Shown in pieces: positions 481-8,347 of a stretch of 64,000 nt of DNA. The notes under the pieces were generated by a model, which had not been told where the DNA came from, did no database searches, and saw nothing but the letters and a program-made list of their open reading frames with translations. Source of the stretch: Ignavibacteriota bacterium (GTDB lineage Bacteria; Bacteroidota; Ignavibacteria; UBA10030; SZUA-254); NCBI GenBank assembly GCA_016212665.1, contig JACREZ010000016.1:124001-188000 (forward strand), given 5' to 3'. Every line of letters begins with the position of its first letter. The first letter of the stretch is position 1. Both the position numbers and the translations under genes were made by a program.

Positions 481-1509
481 ATGTCTGATAAAATTCAAAC
501 ACAAGAACATCTCTTTGTAGAAGTTGCGCAACTTATTCAGGACGCGCGAAGGAAAGCGCTCCAATCCGTCAATACCCAACTCATTGATTTGTATTGGCAG
601 GTGGGCGAGTACATCAGCCGGAAAGTTGAATCGGCGGTGTGGGGTGAAGGTGTGGTAAAGCAACTTGCAGAGTACATTGCACGTGAATTACCGGATGTAA
701 AGGGATTTACCCGACGTAATCTGTTTAGAATGAAACAATTCTATGAGGTTTATAGAGATGATGAAAAAGTCTCACCACTGGTGAGACAATTACCGTGGAC
801 ACATAACATCATTATCCTCAGTAAATGTAAAAGTTCTGAAGAACGAAAATTTTATATTGAACTATCATTTCGTGAAAAATATTCAAAGAGGGAATTAGAA
901 CATCAAATTGATGGCGCATTGTTCGAACGTACAATCCTTTCACCTCCAAAAGTGTCACCGCTGGTGACACAATTGTATCCTCTTGCCACACAAGTATTTA
1001 GGGATACGTACCTTCTCGATTTTCTCAATCTTCCGGAAGGTCATTCCGAATCAGAGTTACAACAAGGATTGGTGGCAAACTTAAAAAAATTCTTGCTTGA
1101 ACTTGGTCGGGACTTCTGTTTTATCGGGGAACGATTTCAGTTACAAGTTGGCGGAAAAGATTTTTTCGTTGATTTACTTTTTTACCATCGAGGGCTGGAA
1201 TGTTTAGTTGATTTTGAATTGAAGATTGATGACTTCAAGCCGGAGTATCTTGGAAAAATGGAGTTTTACCTTGAGGCATTAGACAGGGATATCAAAAAGC
1301 CGCATGAAAAACCAAGTGTAGGCGTGTTGCTTTGCAAATCGAAAGACGCGGAGATTGTGGAGTATGCGCTCAGCCGGACACTCTCCCCGACACTCATCGC
1401 CGAGTATAAAACAGCATTGCCGGATAAATATTTGTTACAGCAGAAACTTCATGAGTTTTATGAACTGCAAACCGAACTGCTCATGAGAGAATCAGAAAAA
1501 GAGGAGTGA
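481..1509 (+). CDS. DUF1016/YhcG-type PDDEXK nuclease family protein
   Basis: A 342-residue protein. The N-terminal ~170 residues match the DUF1016 N-terminal domain (LIDLYWQVGEYIS, FTRRNLFRMKQFYE, QLPWTHN). The C-terminal half is the YhcG PDDEXK-like domain with D231 and the E246-L-K248 triad, followed by PEYLGKMEFYL. Family members are putative DNA-processing enzymes often found near restriction-modification genes; the substrate is not established. Its stop overlaps the start of ubiD (TGATG), so an accessory nuclease is translationally coupled to a menaquinone decarboxylase gene, which suggests insertion into an older operon. Two 19-base palindromes lie inside the gene and encode near-identical VSPLV(R/T)QL peptides. 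Confidence 0.85.
   Translation: MSDKIQTQEHLFVEVAQLIQDARRKALQSVNTQLIDLYWQVGEYISRKVESAVWGEGVVKQLAEYIARELPDVKGFTRRNLFRMKQFYEVYRDDEKVSPLVRQLPWTHNIIILSKCKSSEERKFYIELSFREKYSKRELEHQIDGALFERTILSPPKVSPLVTQLYPLATQVFRDTYLLDFLNLPEGHSESELQQGLVANLKKFLLELGRDFCFIGERFQLQVGGKDFFVDLLFYHRGLECLVDFELKIDDFKPEYLGKMEFYLEALDRDIKKPHEKPSVGVLLCKSKDAEIVEYALSRTLSPTLIAEYKTALPDKYLLQQKLHEFYELQTELLMRESEKEE
769..787. repeat. Perfect intragenic palindrome (copy 1)
   Basis: Arms GTCTCACCA and TGGTGAGAC are separated by one base. It lies inside the DUF1016 gene and encodes part of VSPLVRQL. A close relative starts 183 bases (61 codons) downstream at 952. Confidence 0.7.
952..970. repeat. Perfect intragenic palindrome (copy 2)
   Basis: Arms GTGTCACC and GGTGACAC are separated by three bases. 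It encodes part of VSPLVTQL, nearly the same peptide as copy 1 at 769-787. Confidence 0.7.
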
Positions 1510-3380
1510 TGCAAAGTTCATTTACGGATTTCCAATCATACATTCACGCAATAGAAAAAGCAGGCGAACTCCATCGCACGCAAGTTGAAATTGACCCCGC
1601 TCTCGAGCTGACGGAAATTTCTGTTCGTGCATTGCGTGAAGGAAAACCTGCGTTACTTGTTGAGCGACCGAAAGGTTCATCATTTCCGCTTGTCATCAAT
1701 CATTTTTCAAGTGCAAAAAGAATTGAGTTATCGCTTGGCAGACATCCGGACGAAATCGGACACGAACTCATTTCGTTTCTTGAACAAGCGATGCCACCGA
1801 CTCTCAAAACATTGCTTGATAATAAACCGACATTGAAACGATTTCTCAATGCACGACCGAAAAATGTTCCTTCGGGAATTTCACAGCAAGTAATCACTCA
1901 GCCAAATCTTGATGCACTTCCGATTCAGGTTTGCTGGGAATTGGACGGCGGAAAGTTTATCACCTACGGACAAATCTTCACCTACGACCCGCGCACGAAC
2001 AAAAGAAATATCGGTGTTTACCGGATGCATGTGTTTGATAAAGCAACGACGGGAATGCACTGGCAAATTCAAAAAGGAGGCGGCTTCCATTATTTTCAGG
2101 CAGAGAAACTTGGACGGGATTTGGAACTTGCCGTTGCGCTCGGTACTTCTCCTGCACTAACGTTTGCAACAATCGCCGCATTGCCGGAAGGAATTGACGA
2201 AGCGATGTTTGCCGGATTCTTGCAAAACAAACGTGTCGAGTTCACGAACGGGAAATCCATTTCGATTTCCGTTCCTGCAAATGCTGAGTTTGTTCTCGAG
2301 GGAATCGTTCCGCAAAAAGAACGAAGAATGGAAGGACCGTTCGGCGACCACTTCGGACATTATTCTGCCGCCGCAGAGTTTCCGGTTTTCCACATCAAGG
2401 CAATCACGCACAGAAAAAATCCGATTTACCCTGCAATCGTGGTCGGCAAGCCGCCGATGGAAGATAAATTTCTCGGCGATGCGACACAGCGGATGCTCGG
2501 TCCGCTTGCGAAACTTATTCACAAAGAAGTAACCGATTTGTGGGCGTACTACGAAGCGGGCTTTCACAACCTGCTTGTCGTTGCCATCGAACAGCGTTAC
2601 CAAAAGGAAGCGATGAAAGCCGCGCTCGGCTTGATGGGAACAGACCAACTTTCGCTCACGAAATGTATCATCACTGTTTCCTCTGGCGTAAACGTTCGCG
2701 ATTGGCACGCTGTGTTGAATGAAATCAAGCACAACTTCGACCCGCATTACGACTTCGTCATGATTCCCAAAGTCCCGCTCGACACGCTCGACTTCACATC
2801 GTACAAAATGAATCTTGGAAGTAAGATGATACTCGACGCGACGCGTAAGGTCGTAGGTGATAGGTTGAAGGTTATAGATGATAGGTCAAAGGTGTTAGGT
2901 GAAAGTGATTTCAAATCTTTTATTACAAATCTCAGGACACTCGACAGGCGAATTCTTGATATAAATTTCATTGATGATTCCTTACTGCTGGTAAAAGTAG
3001 ATTCGCCTATTTCCTATCATCTAAAACCTGATACCAATAACCTATCACCTAACACTTATGACCTCTCACCTACGACCGGCATGGATGTGCTCAAAAAACT
3101 CCTCCAACGCAACGAACTCCAATATCTGAAAATGGTAGCAGTAGTAAGCGAAGATGTGGACATTCACAACAAGGAGAGTTATATTTGGGGTGTCTTTACA
3201 CGATTCGATTGCGAGCGTGATGTTTTGTTCACAGAACAAAAGATGCTCGGCATTTCTCCCGTGTACAACGGCGTGATGGGAATTGATGCAACATGGAAAC
3301 CCGGCTATCCCGAACCGCTCACCATGCCCGAAGAAATTGTGAAACGAGTTGATGAGAAGTGGGGAAAGATTTGGAAGTGA
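1509..3380 (+). CDS. ubiD: UbiD-family decarboxylase, probably for menaquinone biosynthesis
   Basis: I place the start at ATG 1509, which overlaps the upstream TGA; a GTG at 1506 is also possible. This gives 623 residues. UbiD enzymes use prenyl-FMN from UbiX to decarboxylate aromatic or unsaturated acids. Family marks include VPANAEFVLEG, the EGPFGDHFGHYS loop, PPMEDKFLGDATQ and GSKMILDATRK. In futalosine-pathway organisms such homologues are proposed to decarboxylate a naphthoate intermediate; the adjacent mqn genes support that, but the substrate is inferred. Residues ~446-466 and ~500-524 are encoded by the two arms of an inverted, repeat-rich element that looks like an in-frame insertion in the C-terminal third. 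Confidence 0.87.
   Translation: MQSSFTDFQSYIHAIEKAGELHRTQVEIDPALELTEISVRALREGKPALLVERPKGSSFPLVINHFSSAKRIELSLGRHPDEIGHELISFLEQAMPPTLKTLLDNKPTLKRFLNARPKNVPSGISQQVITQPNLDALPIQVCWELDGGKFITYGQIFTYDPRTNKRNIGVYRMHVFDKATTGMHWQIQKGGGFHYFQAEKLGRDLELAVALGTSPALTFATIAALPEGIDEAMFAGFLQNKRVEFTNGKSISISVPANAEFVLEGIVPQKERRMEGPFGDHFGHYSAAAEFPVFHIKAITHRKNPIYPAIVVGKPPMEDKFLGDATQRMLGPLAKLIHKEVTDLWAYYEAGFHNLLVVAIEQRYQKEAMKAALGLMGTDQLSLTKCIITVSSGVNVRDWHAVLNEIKHNFDPHYDFVMIPKVPLDTLDFTSYKMNLGSKMILDATRKVVGDRLKVIDDRSKVLGESDFKSFITNLRTLDRRILDINFIDDSLLLVKVDSPISYHLKPDTNNLSPNTYDLSPTTGMDVLKKLLQRNELQYLKMVAVVSEDVDIHNKESYIWGVFTRFDCERDVLFTEQKMLGISPVYNGVMGIDATWKPGYPEPLTMPEEIVKRVDEKWGKIWK
2845..2905. repeat. Left arm of an in-frame inverted repeat inside ubiD
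   Basis: Degenerate GGTCGTAGGTGATAGGTT-type units that are approximately the reverse complement of 3007-3078. They encode a charged stretch with KVVGDRLKVIDDR that I cannot relate to the UbiD fold. Confidence 0.7.
3007..3078. repeat. Right arm of an in-frame inverted repeat inside ubiD
   Basis: Degenerate CCTATCACCTAACAC / CTCACCTACGACC units, the approximate reverse complement of 2845-2905. They encode an N/S/P/T-rich peptide (LSPNTYDLSPTT). The reading frame stays open across the element. Confidence 0.7.
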
Positions 3381-3390
3381 TTTTCCTTGT

Positions 3391-4380
3391 ATGAAATATT
3401 TTCTCTATCTGTTGTTGACTGTGATTGCTTTTTGGTGTTGCGAAGAAAGTACCGTTAAGCACGTTGTCATTATTGGACGTCCCGAATGGTCGCCGACAGG
3501 AAACACAATCGCAATTTTAAAAGATGAATTTGATGTTCGTTCTGACGGATGTGATTGTGGTGAGCAACCATTATCAACTCCACCGGCGATTACGAATAAT
3601 TTATTTCTTGTTGACACGAATGGTGTGATACATAACCAACTTACAGATGATGTATTGAATATAGCGATGTATGAATGGTCACCATCAGGGAAAATGATAG
3701 CATTTACATCGTACGGGCGTGGTGTAGGAATCATTGACACAAATTTTCAGGTTAAATTATTAGGAAGTAGTGGCATAACTGTACATTGGTCTGCGGATGG
3801 GAGTGAGATACTTTTCACAAATGTTTCAGGAAATAATGCTCAATTGGTTGCAAGAAAAATTTCAGACGGCACACGAAGAATCCTCTTTGAAGATTCAGCG
3901 ACAATGATAACATCACACAGTTGGTCGAAAGGGAATCGGATTGCAGTGGCATATTCCAGGTCTTCATACAATTATCTTGCAATGATGAACCATAACGGAA
4001 CTGATTTCAGGATTCTCGATTCCAATGCTGTTAGCGGCATTGCTTCGCTCACTTGGTCGCCTGATGATTCACTGATTGCTTATACGTACGATGTCTCGTC
4101 GTATGCAAGTCAGCAGGTGTTTTATTTCAATATCTACACGAACGAAAAGATTCAGAGGACAAACTTTCCTGCCGGCAAAAGCTCCATTTCTGGATTGCGT
4201 TTTTCTCCCGATGGTAAGTATATTAGTGTTGTGAGCAGTCTCGGATTATACATTATTGAGAGAATGGGTCCATCAGCACAGCAAATTATAACAGGATTTT
4301 CAGATTGCAGTTGGTCGCAGGATTCAAGAAGAATAGTATATGTTGAAAATAATTCCATCAAGATAGCAACCATACAATAA
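3391..4380 (+). CDS. Exported seven-bladed TolB/WD40-like beta-propeller protein
   Basis: Start at ATG 3391 gives 329 residues and places a hydrophobic leader (FLYLLLTVIAF) ending at two cysteines at the N-terminus, so this may be a lipoprotein, although the lipobox is not canonical. Seven PD40-like repeats are visible as W/F-S-x-D/G motifs: EWSPTG, EWSPSG, HWSADG, SWSKGN, TWSPDD, RFSPDG and SWSQDS. Such propellers act in the periplasm or on the cell surface as binding scaffolds; no catalytic site is seen. It lies 10 bases after ubiD but has no evident role in quinone synthesis. Confidence 0.75.
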   Translation: MKYFLYLLLTVIAFWCCEESTVKHVVIIGRPEWSPTGNTIAILKDEFDVRSDGCDCGEQPLSTPPAITNNLFLVDTNGVIHNQLTDDVLNIAMYEWSPSGKMIAFTSYGRGVGIIDTNFQVKLLGSSGITVHWSADGSEILFTNVSGNNAQLVARKISDGTRRILFEDSATMITSHSWSKGNRIAVAYSRSSYNYLAMMNHNGTDFRILDSNAVSGIASLTWSPDDSLIAYTYDVSSYASQQVFYFNIYTNEKIQRTNFPAGKSSISGLRFSPDGKYISVVSSLGLYIIERMGPSAQQIITGFSDCSWSQDSRRIVYVENNSIKIATIQ

Positions 4381-4395
4381 CATCATATTGGCATT

Positions 4396-4593
4396 ATGAA
4401 TTTTAACTTCCGCGATAATTCTCTAACTCCCATCTTCCAAAAAATCCAATCCGGAGAACGTCTCTCCCTCGAAGATGGACTCCCGTATTCCACTAAAACG
4501 ACAAACGGTCACTCAGTTTCCCGAATGACCGTTAAACCAATGTTGCTCACATTGGCGCTGTTAGACAGCATTAATATAGCATATATCATATAA
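4396..4593 (+). pseudogene. Remnant copy of the 5' end of mqnE
   Basis: Bases 4396-4481 duplicate the first 86 bases of the intact mqnE-mqnA gene (5262-5347). The first third differs at about nine positions and the last ~50 bases are identical. Homology then stops abruptly and the frame runs into unrelated sequence. The remnant could encode 65 residues, but nothing supports a function. Together with the intact copy it brackets the NYN gene, which points to insertion or recombination with a diverged mqnE copy. Confidence 0.8.
4504..4569. repeat. Cluster of three consecutive stem-loops before the NYN gene
   Basis: Three inverted repeats in a row: AACGGTCA/TGACCGTT (4504-4533), CCAATG/CATTGG (4537-4555) and GCTGT/ACAGC (4557-4569). 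No T-tract follows, so this is not a simple terminator. It starts just after the mqnE remnant and ends 40 bases before the NYN gene. The style resembles the four-hairpin cluster at 63260-63375. Confidence 0.65.
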
Positions 4594-4608
4594 TTATTCA
4601 ACTCTTTC

Positions 4609-5232
4609 ATGTCTTTACAACAAAAAAAAGTTATTGTTTACATAGATGGTTTCAATCTCTATTTTGGGTTACTACAAAAGGGTTGGAAAAAGTATTTATG
4701 GCTTGATTTACAAAAATTAGCAGTTTCATTGCTAAAACAAGGTGAGACTTTGGTCCACACAAAATATTTCACATCAAGAATTTCAAAACCGCTTTCTAAA
4801 CAACGACGGCAAAGTTTATTTTTAGATGCGCTGAATACACTATCGGAACTTTCAATATTTTATGGTCGCTATCAGGCAGAGCTTCGAACTTGTGAAAATT
4901 GTGGATTTACTTCCTTTATTTCGAACGAAAAGAAAACCGATGTTAACATAGCTACAGAACTATTGGTAGATGCGTTTCAAAATAGTTTTGACGTTGCAAT
5001 CCTTATTACTGCAGACGCAGACTTAACTGCCCCTATAGTTGCAATTCGTAAGTTATTCCCTACAAAGTCTGTATTAGTCGCTTTTCCTCCGGAACGACAT
5101 TCTTACGAACTAAAACAGAATGCCTCTGGTGTTTATCACATCGGGGAGGAAAAGTTATCTAATAATCTTCTACCGGAAAAAATAATTACAAAATCAGGTT
5201 TTGTAATCCAACGTCCTGACAAATGGAAATAA
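4609..5232 (+). CDS. NYN domain (DUF88/LabA-like) putative ribonuclease
   Basis: A 207-residue single-domain protein. NYN domains are PIN-like, metal-dependent nuclease folds thought to act on RNA. The acidic residues expected for the active site are in place: D13 (YIDGFN), D111 (KKTDVNIATELLVDA) and D136/D138 (ITADADLTAP). A Cys pair (CENCG) in the middle may bind a metal; only two cysteines are seen there. The gene is visibly more AT-rich than mqnE, is bracketed by duplicated mqnE 5' sequence and is preceded by three hairpins, all consistent with recent acquisition. The target is unknown. Confidence 0.82.
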   Translation: MSLQQKKVIVYIDGFNLYFGLLQKGWKKYLWLDLQKLAVSLLKQGETLVHTKYFTSRISKPLSKQRRQSLFLDALNTLSELSIFYGRYQAELRTCENCGFTSFISNEKKTDVNIATELLVDAFQNSFDVAILITADADLTAPIVAIRKLFPTKSVLVAFPPERHSYELKQNASGVYHIGEEKLSNNLLPEKIITKSGFVIQRPDKWK

Positions 5233-5261
5233 TTCAGTTTGCCTTTTTGAATTAGAATATT

Positions 5262-7124
5262 ATGACTCTCAACTTCCGCGAAAAATCCTTAATCCCCATC
5301 TTCCAAAAAATCCAATCCGGAGAACGTCTCTCCCTCGAAGATGGACTGACACTCTACAACACCAACGACATCATTTCGCTTGGGAAGATGGCGAACTATG
5401 CTCAGCAACGAAAGAGCGGCGATGCTGTCTATTTCGTGCTGAATCAGAAAATCGAACATACAAATATTTGTGTTCTCTCGTGCAAGTTCTGTGACTTCGC
5501 CGTGAAGAAGGGAGATGCCGACGCGTACGAGATGACGACGGAAGAAATTCTCTCCAAGATTACTCCCGAAATTACGGAAGTCCACATCACCGGCGGAATG
5601 CCTGCTGACTGGAAGTGGGAACGTTACCTTGATATCGTCCGCTCAATTCACGAGAAGTTTCCGAATGCAGATGCGAAAGCGTACACCGCAGTCGAGATAG
5701 ATTTCTTTCACAAGAAATTCAAATTACCGATTGAGGAAGTGTTGCGTCAACTGAAAGAAGCAGGTTTGCGGACAATGCCCGGCGGCGGAGCGGAGATTTT
5801 CTCCGAGCGTGTGCGGCGGTTGTTGTTCAATCAAAAGATTGGTGGTCATGTTTGGCTCAACATTCACAAGACAGCGCACAAAATGGGAATTCCCACCAAC
5901 GCAACGATGCTCTACGGTCATATCGAGACGATTGAAGAGCGGCTCATTCACATGCTCAAACTTCGCGAAGCGCAGGATGAGACAGGTGGATTCCTTACGT
6001 TCATTCCGCTTGCGTTTCAGCCCGGCGACACAGGCATCAAACCCACCAATCAATTCACTTCCGCAATTGACGATTTGAAAACGATTGCCATCTCGCGGCT
6101 CATGCTCGATAACTTCCCGCACATCAAAGCATACTGGGTGATGCTCACGGAAGAAGTCGCATCGGTTGCGCTCAACTTCGGAGCGGATGATATGGACGGA
6201 ACAGTCGGACATGAACGTATTGCTCACGATGCCGGCGCAATTTCTCCGATGCAACTGACGAAAGAACACATCATCAAAATTATCAAAGATGCCGGAAAGA
6301 TTCCGGTGGAGCGGGACGTATATTACAATCCGCTCAATGTTTATGCCGACCATGTCGTCGGAAAGATTCCGTACCTGAATTCAATTCCGTTCTACGCGCA
6401 TTTCGAGAAGCGGCAGTTCAGAATTCTTCCTGTTGCGCCGCGCCGCATGGGAGTTCTCAGCGAGAAACGACAAATTGACGCCGGACTTTTTTCTCTGATG
6501 GATTATTTCAAGCAAGAGCAAGACATGGAGTTGATGGGTTGGTGCCTTGCTTCGCGTGATCAGGTGAAAAGCGTTATGTTGTTTTCCAAAGAAGGGTGGG
6601 GAGATTTGAACGGAAAGAAAATCGGTATCACCGATGACACGGCAACGTCTGTGCATCTGCTCCGTGTGTTGCTGGAAAAGAAATACAACGTGCGTGCAAA
6701 GTTCGAGCGGCTTCACGCCGGAGTGAACGACGTCTCAGCGTATGATGCAGTTCTTCTTATCGGCGATGAAGCAATGAAGCGGAACAAATCCGGTTTGCAC
6801 GGCTTCGAACTTGTATATGATTTGGCAAAAGAATGGTACGACTGGAAAAAGATGCCGTTCGTGTTTGCAGTCTGGGCGATGAAGAAATCACTTGATGAAT
6901 CAGTGAAGAACGAACTGAAAGAAATTATCACCCAGTCACTTGAGAAATCTGAAATTGATTTCGTTGCGGACGCGAGATTGCATGGAAAAGAAATCGGCTG
7001 GAGCGAGCAGGAAACACGCGAATATCTCGAAGGATTCAACTTCCATCTCGGCGAGCGGGAGATGGAAGCGATGATGGAGTTCCGGAGTTTGGTGGGAGAA
7101 GTACAATTCGAGAAAGTGAAATAA
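5262..7124 (+). CDS. mqnE: Fused aminofutalosine synthase (MqnE) and chorismate dehydratase (MqnA)
   Basis: A 620-residue protein. Residues 1 to ~362 are a radical-SAM MqnE domain with the cluster cysteines C70-x3-C74-x2-C77, the TGGMPADWKWERY segment and MPGGGAEIF. From ~365 (VGKIPYLNSIPFY) the sequence is MqnA-like, a periplasmic-binding-protein fold that dehydrates chorismate to 3-enolpyruvylbenzoate, with LNGKKIGITDDTATS and HGFELVYDLAKEW. MqnA makes the substrate that MqnE joins to SAM, so the fusion links two consecutive steps. Most organisms encode these separately, to my knowledge. mqnC follows 128 bases downstream. Domain calls rest on motif recognition. Confidence 0.88.
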   Translation: MTLNFREKSLIPIFQKIQSGERLSLEDGLTLYNTNDIISLGKMANYAQQRKSGDAVYFVLNQKIEHTNICVLSCKFCDFAVKKGDADAYEMTTEEILSKITPEITEVHITGGMPADWKWERYLDIVRSIHEKFPNADAKAYTAVEIDFFHKKFKLPIEEVLRQLKEAGLRTMPGGGAEIFSERVRRLLFNQKIGGHVWLNIHKTAHKMGIPTNATMLYGHIETIEERLIHMLKLREAQDETGGFLTFIPLAFQPGDTGIKPTNQFTSAIDDLKTIAISRLMLDNFPHIKAYWVMLTEEVASVALNFGADDMDGTVGHERIAHDAGAISPMQLTKEHIIKIIKDAGKIPVERDVYYNPLNVYADHVVGKIPYLNSIPFYAHFEKRQFRILPVAPRRMGVLSEKRQIDAGLFSLMDYFKQEQDMELMGWCLASRDQVKSVMLFSKEGWGDLNGKKIGITDDTATSVHLLRVLLEKKYNVRAKFERLHAGVNDVSAYDAVLLIGDEAMKRNKSGLHGFELVYDLAKEWYDWKKMPFVFAVWAMKKSLDESVKNELKEIITQSLEKSEIDFVADARLHGKEIGWSEQETREYLEGFNFHLGEREMEAMMEFRSLVGEVQFEKVK

Positions 7125-7141
7125 ATTGCTATTAATATATT

Positions 7142-7229
7142 TACCACGGATGACACAGATATTTACACGGATTTTCACAGATATGTTATCAGTGAACATC
7201 AGTGCTTCTTCCGTGTCATCCGCGGTTAG
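7142..7229. repeat. Imperfect inverted repeat of the CACGGAT-ACACAGA type
   Basis: The ends ACCACGGATGACAC and GTGTCATCCGCGGT are inverted with one mismatch. Between them are degenerate TTTACACGGATTTTCACAGA units. A second member lies at 32394-32490. It separates mqnE-mqnA from mqnC. Confidence 0.75.
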
Positions 7230-7252
7230 TTATGGTATAAAGAGTTCTTAAA

Positions 7253-8347
7253 ATGACATTATCATCTATCTATCAAAAAACACAAATCCAACAACGTCTC
7301 ACCTCCGAAGAAGGACTCTTCCTTCTGAAGAATGCCGAACTGCTTGACCTCGGCGGGCTTGCGAACGAAATTCGTTTCAGGAAAAATCCAAAGCCGCAGG
7401 TTACATTCGTGATTGATACGAACCCGAACTACACGAACATCTGCAACATTGATTGCATCTTTTGCGCGTTCTATCGTCATGCCGGAGAGAAGGGAGAGTA
7501 CACTTACTCCGTTGACCAAATGATTGAGAATTTCAAGCGAGCGGCGGCACAAGGCGTAACAACAATTTTGCTGCAAGGCGGAGTCAATCCGGCGCTTCCG
7601 TTTGAATATTACATCAAGATGGTGGAACGAACGGTGAAGGAGGTACCTGAAGTTACTCCGCATTTTTATTCGACGTCAGAAATACTTGGGATGTCTGAAG
7701 TTTCAGGCCTCACGGTTCAGGAGGTGTTACAAAAACTTTGGGATGCAGGACAGCGAACGATTCCCGGCGGCGGTGCGGAGATTCTTTCCGACAGAGTGAA
7801 GAAGAAAATTTCTCATCTGAAAGGAACGAGCTCAGATTGGTTGAACGTGATGCGTGAAGCGCACAAAGTCGGGTTCAAATCAACGGCGACGATGATGTAC
7901 GGACATTTGGAAAACGATGATGACATCATCACGCATCTAGAAAGCATCAGGCAATTGCAGGATGAGTATCATGGGTTCACGGCGTTTGTCCCGTGGAGTT
8001 TCAAGCCGGGAAATACGCCGCTGGAAAAAATCATTCCGCACTACGCAACACCGACTCGTTATTTGCAGATGCTCGCCTTCTCCCGGATTTATCTCGATAA
8101 CTTCGCTCACATTCAGGCGTCGTGGTTTTCGGAAGGAAAGAAGACGGGACAAATCGCTCTCCACTTCGGCGCAGATGATTTTGGTGGAACGCTGTTCGAG
8201 GAGAATGTTCACGCCGAAGCGAACTTCATCAACAAAACAAATGTGGACGAAGTGATACAAATGATCCGTGATGCAGGATTCACGCCGGTGCAGAGAACGA
8301 CATTGTATGAGACGTTGAAGGTGTATGAGAAGAAGGAAGCGGCGTGA
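7253..8347 (+). CDS. mqnC: Cyclic dehypoxanthinyl futalosine synthase
   Basis: A 364-residue radical-SAM enzyme that cyclises dehypoxanthinyl futalosine in the futalosine route to menaquinone. The cluster cysteines are C64-x3-C68-x2-C71 in TNICNIDCIFCAF. Other MqnC marks are LLQGGVNPALPFEYY, TIPGGGAEIL, SWFSEGKKTGQIALHFGADDFGG and GFTPVQR. Length fits the family. It follows mqnE-mqnA on the same strand. The futalosine hydrolase gene (mqnB) that should supply its substrate is not in this window. Its N-terminus resembles that of mqnE, as expected for sister families. Confidence 0.93.
   Translation: MTLSSIYQKTQIQQRLTSEEGLFLLKNAELLDLGGLANEIRFRKNPKPQVTFVIDTNPNYTNICNIDCIFCAFYRHAGEKGEYTYSVDQMIENFKRAAAQGVTTILLQGGVNPALPFEYYIKMVERTVKEVPEVTPHFYSTSEILGMSEVSGLTVQEVLQKLWDAGQRTIPGGGAEILSDRVKKKISHLKGTSSDWLNVMREAHKVGFKSTATMMYGHLENDDDIITHLESIRQLQDEYHGFTAFVPWSFKPGNTPLEKIIPHYATPTRYLQMLAFSRIYLDNFAHIQASWFSEGKKTGQIALHFGADDFGGTLFEENVHAEANFINKTNVDEVIQMIRDAGFTPVQRTTLYETLKVYEKKEAA

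Follow-up and report, generated by a model that had tools for sequence, protein, structure and literature searches.

A covarying double-hairpin RNA element linked to HEC-09 NYN nuclease genes and its probable insertion at an mqnE junction

Introduction

Why should the start of one gene stand on both sides of another? The question is raised by a 64 000-nucleotide stretch of DNA from an Ignavibacteriota bacterium (assembly GCA_016212665.1, contig JACREZ010000016.1, positions 124 001–188 000; the whole stretch is called the window below), in which a gene for an NYN-domain nuclease is bracketed by two copies of the first codons of mqnE; the intact gene is called mqnE-type from its domain content. 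In the explanation that we favour, and consider reasonably likely, a module made up of a structured RNA element and an NYN gene of the candidate defence family HEC-09 (PADLOC) was inserted at a hotspot ahead of mqnE, together with a foreign mqnE start. The module is probably an RNA-controlled nuclease. An earlier note, made from the letters of the window alone, had proposed the entry of a cassette carrying a foreign mqnE start; that reading is partly supported, and the conserved companionship of hairpins and NYN gene described here went unnoticed in it. Features and coordinates are collected in Table 1.

Duplication of the mqnE start

The 86-base repeat to which the earlier note drew attention (4396–4481 and 5262–5347) is real: the two copies are 90% identical over 89 nt, and the BLAST E value of the 86-nt core (1.3e-29) shows that it is not due to chance. 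The first third was correctly described as diverged and the remainder as identical. Over mqnE codons 1–29 the copies match at 24 of 33 bases and then at 53 of 53, so that the differences are unevenly spread (Fisher p = 8e-5). A 65-amino-acid open reading frame (4396–4593) starts with the upstream copy, and a 620-amino-acid gene with radical SAM, CofH_C and VitK2_biosynth domains starts with the downstream one. The upstream remnant starts 15 nt past the stop codon of a PD40 gene, and in three relatives (G009, G012 and G013) mqnE has a single start and comes 0–30 bases after the PD40 gene; the remnant therefore lies in the native place of the gene.

In the earlier note, recombination inside the identical part resolved the insertion. 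This step is unneeded, and the 53 identical bases were rejected as proof of it, since the same split is seen between the window and a species of the same genus (G002), whose mqnE differs at 11/33 and then 1/53 positions; the identical part is a conserved stretch. One of the two starts in the window is probably foreign, judging from the sequences, because they diverge about as much as congeneric species do, and a start with that level of divergence explains the pattern without any crossover inside the identical part. The proposal of a foreign start thus stands in part, either copy being eligible as the foreign one. Other gene starts bracketing a gene in this way were not seen in the six repeat pairs examined out of 41 in the 339-kb contig of the window plus 100 kb. 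One further repeat in this genome, at locus L127 on contig C3 (73 bp, 90%, intergenic, locus positions 4946–5018 and 5835–5907), lies on either side of what may be a toxin–antitoxin pair of PIN type, so named by eye.

An integration hotspot between ubiD/PD40 and mqnE

A match to mqnE was found in 55 of 60 genomes, and the junction ahead of it was surveyed at 41 loci in the bacterial order: 38 relatives, the window's own genome (G000), G002 and G003. A contig end truncates the junction of G030, leaving 40 usable; the lengths for G003 and G028 are lower bounds, as ubiD was not reached. Usually mqnE follows ubiD, in some genomes with a PD40 gene between them. The junction is 0–235 bp long in 26 genomes and exceeds 800 bp in the other 14. 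The empty site with a single mqnE start that the earlier note had asked for exists among the short junctions, the PD40 gene abutting mqnE in G009, G012 and G013 and ubiD lying near mqnE in others. The long junctions often hold genes of defence or toxin–antitoxin type: a sample, annotated with Pfam and PADLOC, contained DNA methyltransferases, HEPN with nucleotidyltransferase, HicA, PemK, AAA ATPases and a PD-(D/E)XK protein, as well as non-defence cargo (a PmbA/TldD-type gene in G034, a Tle1-like lipase domain in G023) and several proteins without a match. The junction is a recurrent integration hotspot.

Duplicated flanks are present in four of the 22 genomes in which the junction was tested for them (the ubiD 3'-end test excluded G003 and G028). 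Besides the 86 nt of the window, G003 has two duplications (395 nt at 90.6% and 115 nt at 81%), among them a second, larger copy of the mqnE start, and G036 and G034 have copies of the ubiD 3' end (98 nt at 94.9% and 106 nt at 82%, respectively). The same layout with other cargo, also sought by the earlier note, is thus found in similar form. The window and G003 are the only two of the 40 junctions with an NYN gene, and they share the order remnant, RNA element, NYN gene, mqnE. The NYN gene is accordingly not a fixed part of the junction, and no remnant without an insert was seen in the relatives examined. NYN protein matches occur in 13 of 98 genomes of the order; the assignment to the mqnE junction leaves out G029, where no mqnE was found, and G068, G079 and G080, which lay outside the mqnE search.

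Under the favoured explanation, positions 4482–5258 would be an inserted two-part module, the double-hairpin RNA (4495–4565) and then the HEC-09 NYN gene at near-constant spacing, which entered the hotspot on DNA also bearing a related mqnE start. Homology within mqnE would have made the right-hand joint, the left-hand one being illegitimate, so that the resident start stayed behind as the 86-nt remnant and an intact mqnE was kept downstream; we infer this order of recombination steps from the arrangement.

The shared layout of the window and G003 would also fit vertical inheritance, with remnant, RNA and NYN gene already together in the common ancestor and the 53 identical bases due to conservation or gene conversion. 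The NYN-linked remnants agree at 26 of their first 33 nt, the highest value among the cross-genus pairs compared, and the synonymous sites of the NYN genes look saturated. This course is nevertheless unlikely: the congener G002 has neither remnant nor NYN gene at the site, nor have G010 and G012, although their mqnE genes are nearer to that of the window than the G003 gene is. An assembly artefact or chance is scarcely credible. The window comes from a draft assembly of 45 contigs, but the two copies differ by nine bases, the same arrangement recurs in an independent draft genome and comparable ones are found in two more relatives. With its empty, filled and scarred versions in related genomes, the mqnE junction is a setting in which the movement between species of small defence modules that lack an integrase of their own can be studied.

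The RNA element

The region 4482–4608 folds into three hairpins (−25.1 kcal/mol, z = −3.4), as the earlier note had seen, but conservation elsewhere is limited to the first two; the third, not conserved among close copies, was rejected as part of the element. A coding role for the open frame through the hairpins was likewise rejected, the amino acid being changed in seven of nine variable codons. The 70-base hairpin region recurs with about 90% identity at other loci in G036 (94%) and G065 (91%). Between the window's genome and G003 the element is identical at 65 of 70 positions, compared with 12 of 65 fourfold-degenerate sites in the NYN genes (p = 1e-19); the corresponding figure for mqnE is 68 of 186.

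The two helices were evaluated in 23 aligned copies against 500 shuffles, with a structure drawn from the same sequences and shuffles that ignore relatedness. Bases pair in 91.9% of cells, and in 30–46% when one side is slid by 1–3 columns. Changes on both sides of a pair occur in 68 cells, against 24.1 in the shuffles, none of which reached the observed value. The two hairpins form a covarying RNA element.

Searches with blastn found no second copy of the hairpin region in the genome itself, no match in plasmids and phages, and the window's copy alone in 395 genomes of the phylum; diverged copies required covariance models. A degenerate hairpin pattern gave no match in viral contigs and three records in genome contigs, taken to be the G036, G003 and G065 copies already found. 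Rfam gave no match up to an E value of 1 at four loci including that of the window, and no family reached its gathering threshold over the element. BjrC68 scored 25.4 and 30.3 bits (gathering threshold 39) over it at loci L041 and L042, on the opposite strand, and a distant relationship is possible; anti-hemB scored 22.3 bits (threshold 49.5) at one remote HEC-09 locus. The term NYN is absent from PMC5688073, a paper bearing on these weak Rfam names. Readings as an integron attC site or a repetitive extragenic palindrome were weighed by eye only, without result.

The NYN gene and its linkage to the element

The gene between the mqnE copies was rightly called an AT-rich NYN gene: it matches PF01936 (E = 5.5e-11) and has a GC fraction of 0.348, compared with 0.435 for the window. 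Its product matches the HEC-09 profile PDLC04163 nearly full-length (residues 6–207 of 207; profile positions 2–203 of 203); this PADLOC profile covers the protein only, without an RNA. The name presumably denotes a candidate found embedded in a known defence system. Residues D13, N16, E107, D111, D136 and D138 are common to 16 aligned sequences, that of the window included, which is consistent with an active nuclease of NYN/PIN type. The family profile has a single match in the Protein Data Bank, 2qip (E = 0.0019), and a structure predicted with two sequences as input was of low quality (mean pLDDT, the predicted local distance difference test score, 50.3). A single paper naming HEC-09 was found (PMC12447246), and what its accessible part reports is only a correlation with phage susceptibility.

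Two covariance models were used. R1 was built from four close copies, that of the window among them, and is blind to 15 other core HEC-09 loci; the training set of the later R2 includes 12 of the 16 core loci, that of the window among them. R1 recovered ten of the 15 core loci other than the window, three of the ten being identical in sequence. Among loci not used to build it, R1 detected the element ahead of the NYN genes of G029, G040 and G054 and, in a set of 38 sources that carry an NYN gene, at ten further HEC-09 loci. It is this blind result that carries the linkage of element and gene.

R2 matches were then compared with HEC-09 profile matches in 395 genomes of the phylum, spacing being measured from the element to the start of the profile match. 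There are 43 R2 matches in 36 genomes, 29 of which hold one copy only, and 22 of the 43 have a HEC-09 match on their own strand no more than 300 nt away. Every HEC-09 gene scoring at least 270 bits (16/16) has the element 52–60 nt ahead of the profile match; the element is upstream of none of four matches at 200–270 bits and of six of 31 weaker ones, some of which are gene pieces. Outside the phylum, R2 matches a plasmid of Thermus oshimai (E = 4e-11) and, less strongly, one of Microbacterium (a weak match, E = 7e-4); the two copies were picked by eye from folds and belong to the R2 training set. Weak matches in the order (G021, G061 and G059; 29–32 bits) were not relied on and were left out of alignment A6 and of R2, G021 being retained in alignment A5 and among the 27 loci of the next section. 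Weak opposite-strand R2 matches at Streptomyces loci L173 and L158 were not counted. At locus L148 (G448), positions 2840–2914 on the minus strand match a group II intron above the gathering score, downstream of the RNA–NYN pair.

Repeats and gene-start remnants at other loci

At five of 27 RNA loci the start of the downstream gene is duplicated upstream of the RNA: in the window, G003, G030, G277 and G323. The remnant comes from a Bro-N gene in G030 (244 nt at 73%) and from hsdR in the near-identical loci of G277 and G323 (46 nt at 80%). At two more loci there are short repeats unconnected with any gene start, and none was relied on at the other 20, among which the Thermus locus gives many weak tblastx matches and another has just 185 nt upstream. 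Longer direct repeats also occur. At L214 (contig C73 of G297) a 372-bp, 96% repeat of the RNA and NYN start (oriented positions 297–667 and 5859–6229) brackets AbiEii-type and TIR-domain genes, an intact RNA–NYN copy lying downstream; at L052 (contig C98 of G079) a distant NYN gene and another open reading frame are bracketed by copies of the 3' end of an alpha-galactosidase gene (173 bp at 79%; 611–783 and 2804–2975). The widely varying breakpoints argue against a site-specific recombinase.

Genes for Y1 (IS200-like) transposases stand directly upstream of the gene-start remnants at L137 in G030 (795–1274) and L154 in G277 (2448–2909). Together with the presence of copies at unrelated loci, some beside duplicated gene starts, they suggest that the hairpins might be a DNA mobility signal, a folded end for a transposase, possibly of Y1/IS200 type, with the NYN gene as a passenger. 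We consider this distinctly improbable, given that no matching right-side end was seen by eye, that the spacing to the NYN start is near-constant and most genomes with the element hold a single copy, and that no transposase was found among the six window genes scanned (481 to 8347).

RNA partner or leader

Remote HEC-09 genes lack an R2 match and have hairpins of their own upstream; a terminator-like stem with a T-run was found at 13 of 16 such loci tested. In E. coli, Salmonella and Klebsiella, small plasmids (L175–L177) carry remote NYN genes that a strong hairpin immediately precedes; L176, the one of these tested, is HEC-09.

By analogy, the RNA element would be transcribed and would bind or restrain the nuclease, a role proposed because RNA antitoxins act in this way in type III toxin–antitoxin and AbiF systems; the module may act against phage. 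A number of results weigh against this or against the inserted module as a whole. No donor of the foreign mqnE start was found, and 22 of the 27 RNA loci show no clear gene-start duplication, which is thus not a constant feature of the module. Promoter-like sites in 4300–5300 are at chance level (four, 4.3 expected), hairpin 1 resembles an opposite-strand terminator (one site, 0.7 expected), and a terminator-like site between RNA and gene is found at none of 14 loci in the window's clade. One measure of covariation, further pair types, does not rise above the shuffles (98 of 500 reach it), and the shuffles are uncorrected for relatedness. Among named plasmid and phage loci with an NYN homologue, just two of 12 have the element on the strand of the gene. 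Finally, 21 of the 43 RNA matches have no HEC-09 match within 300 nt; of 12 of these examined, four keep an NYN start of about 20–31 codons and eight have none, one because the contig ends there. In G054 some 35 codons of the NYN gene are left, and its congener G042 has a copy of the RNA but no NYN match. An Abi_2 gene lies near the copy in G309, which keeps an NYN start, and other defence-type genes lie near some gene-less copies. Most gene-less copies are probably decayed modules.

The hairpins could instead be a cis-acting leader of the NYN mRNA, the nuclease binding or cutting its own leader with no separate RNA partner. The element and gene are co-directional at near-constant spacing in the core clade, as a leader would be, and the dearth of terminator-like and promoter-like sites just described fits it as well. 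We regard a leader as somewhat unlikely, since the G036 and G065 copies persist in genomes without an NYN match, most of the gene-less copies examined lack even an NYN start, and the stems and T-runs of the remote loci are as expected of a separate small RNA.

Relation to known systems

In type III toxin–antitoxin systems (ToxIN, CptIN and TenpIN) the gene of a structured RNA immediately precedes a nuclease gene in the same direction; the covarying element stands in that place ahead of all 16 core HEC-09 genes, where it may be such an RNA gene. A terminator between RNA and toxin gene belongs to that arrangement (PMC5086642); the remote HEC-09 loci have a terminator-like hairpin there, whereas the window's clade does not. 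The type III antitoxin is a tandem repeat array and the toxin is of ToxN, CptN or TenpN type, in contrast to the one double-hairpin unit and the NYN domain here. In Clostridioides difficile, AbiF is neutralized by the associated non-coding RNA RCd22, which has two conserved motifs (PMC12373285); the pairing of defence protein and RNA is alike, but the protein family (Abi_2/AbiD/F) is unrelated to NYN. Insertion with long target duplication is known from restriction-modification genes of Helicobacter pylori and others, which are bracketed by direct host copies of about 100 bp (PMC3874152, PMC1643837, PMC3031569). The window shares with such insertions the bracket of about that length and the unduplicated empty site in relatives; it differs in its cargo of RNA and NYN gene, in the partial divergence of the copies (9/33), which points to a foreign start, and in the recurrence of similar events at one operon junction.

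Among the matches listed, which included few subscription papers and no preprints outside PubMed Central, none described an RNA associated with HEC-09 or with NYN genes, and the RNA element appears to be undescribed. A broader proposal, to which we give slightly less than even weight, is that HEC-09 may be a two-component RNA–nuclease system in which a double-hairpin RNA guides or restrains the NYN nuclease, type III-like with a different toxin domain. It would occur in the window's phylum and on plasmids of Thermus and, more weakly, Microbacterium, with a second, terminator-bearing type of RNA in remote branches. If the RNA is a partner, the candidate defence family HEC-09 is listed as a single gene when it has two components, and experiments with only the gene could mislead.

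Features of the locus

Table 1. Features at the mqnE junction of the window
Feature	Position	Strand	Evidence
Left border of hotspot: UbiD-family gene (1506–3380) and PD40 beta-propeller gene (3349–4380)	1506–4380	+	Open reading frames, domains, relatives
Truncated copy of mqnE 5' end (codons 1–29, from 4396)	4393–4481	+	90% repeat over 89 nt; native position from G009, G012, G013
Joint between mqnE remnant and RNA element, 13 nt	4482–4494	+	No counterpart among four close copies
Conserved structured RNA element: hairpin 1 (4504–4533), linker, hairpin 2 (4537–4555), GCTGTTA tail	4495–4565	+	R2 E = 9.9e-14 (window in training set); R1; covariation
Third small hairpin	4557–4569	+	Fold; not conserved in other three close copies
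NYN-domain nuclease gene, 207 amino acids, PADLOC candidate defence family HEC-09	4609–5232	+	PF01936 E = 5.5e-11; PDLC04163 E = 1.1e-82
Second repeat copy, 5' end of intact mqnE	5259–5347	+	Repeat comparison
Intact fused mqnE-type gene, radical SAM part and menaquinone-synthesis domain	5262–7124	+	Open reading frame and domain matches

On the far side of the left border, a YhcG/DUF1016-type nuclease gene (481–1509) overlaps the start of ubiD and is possibly further cargo, opposite the mqnE side of the hotspot.

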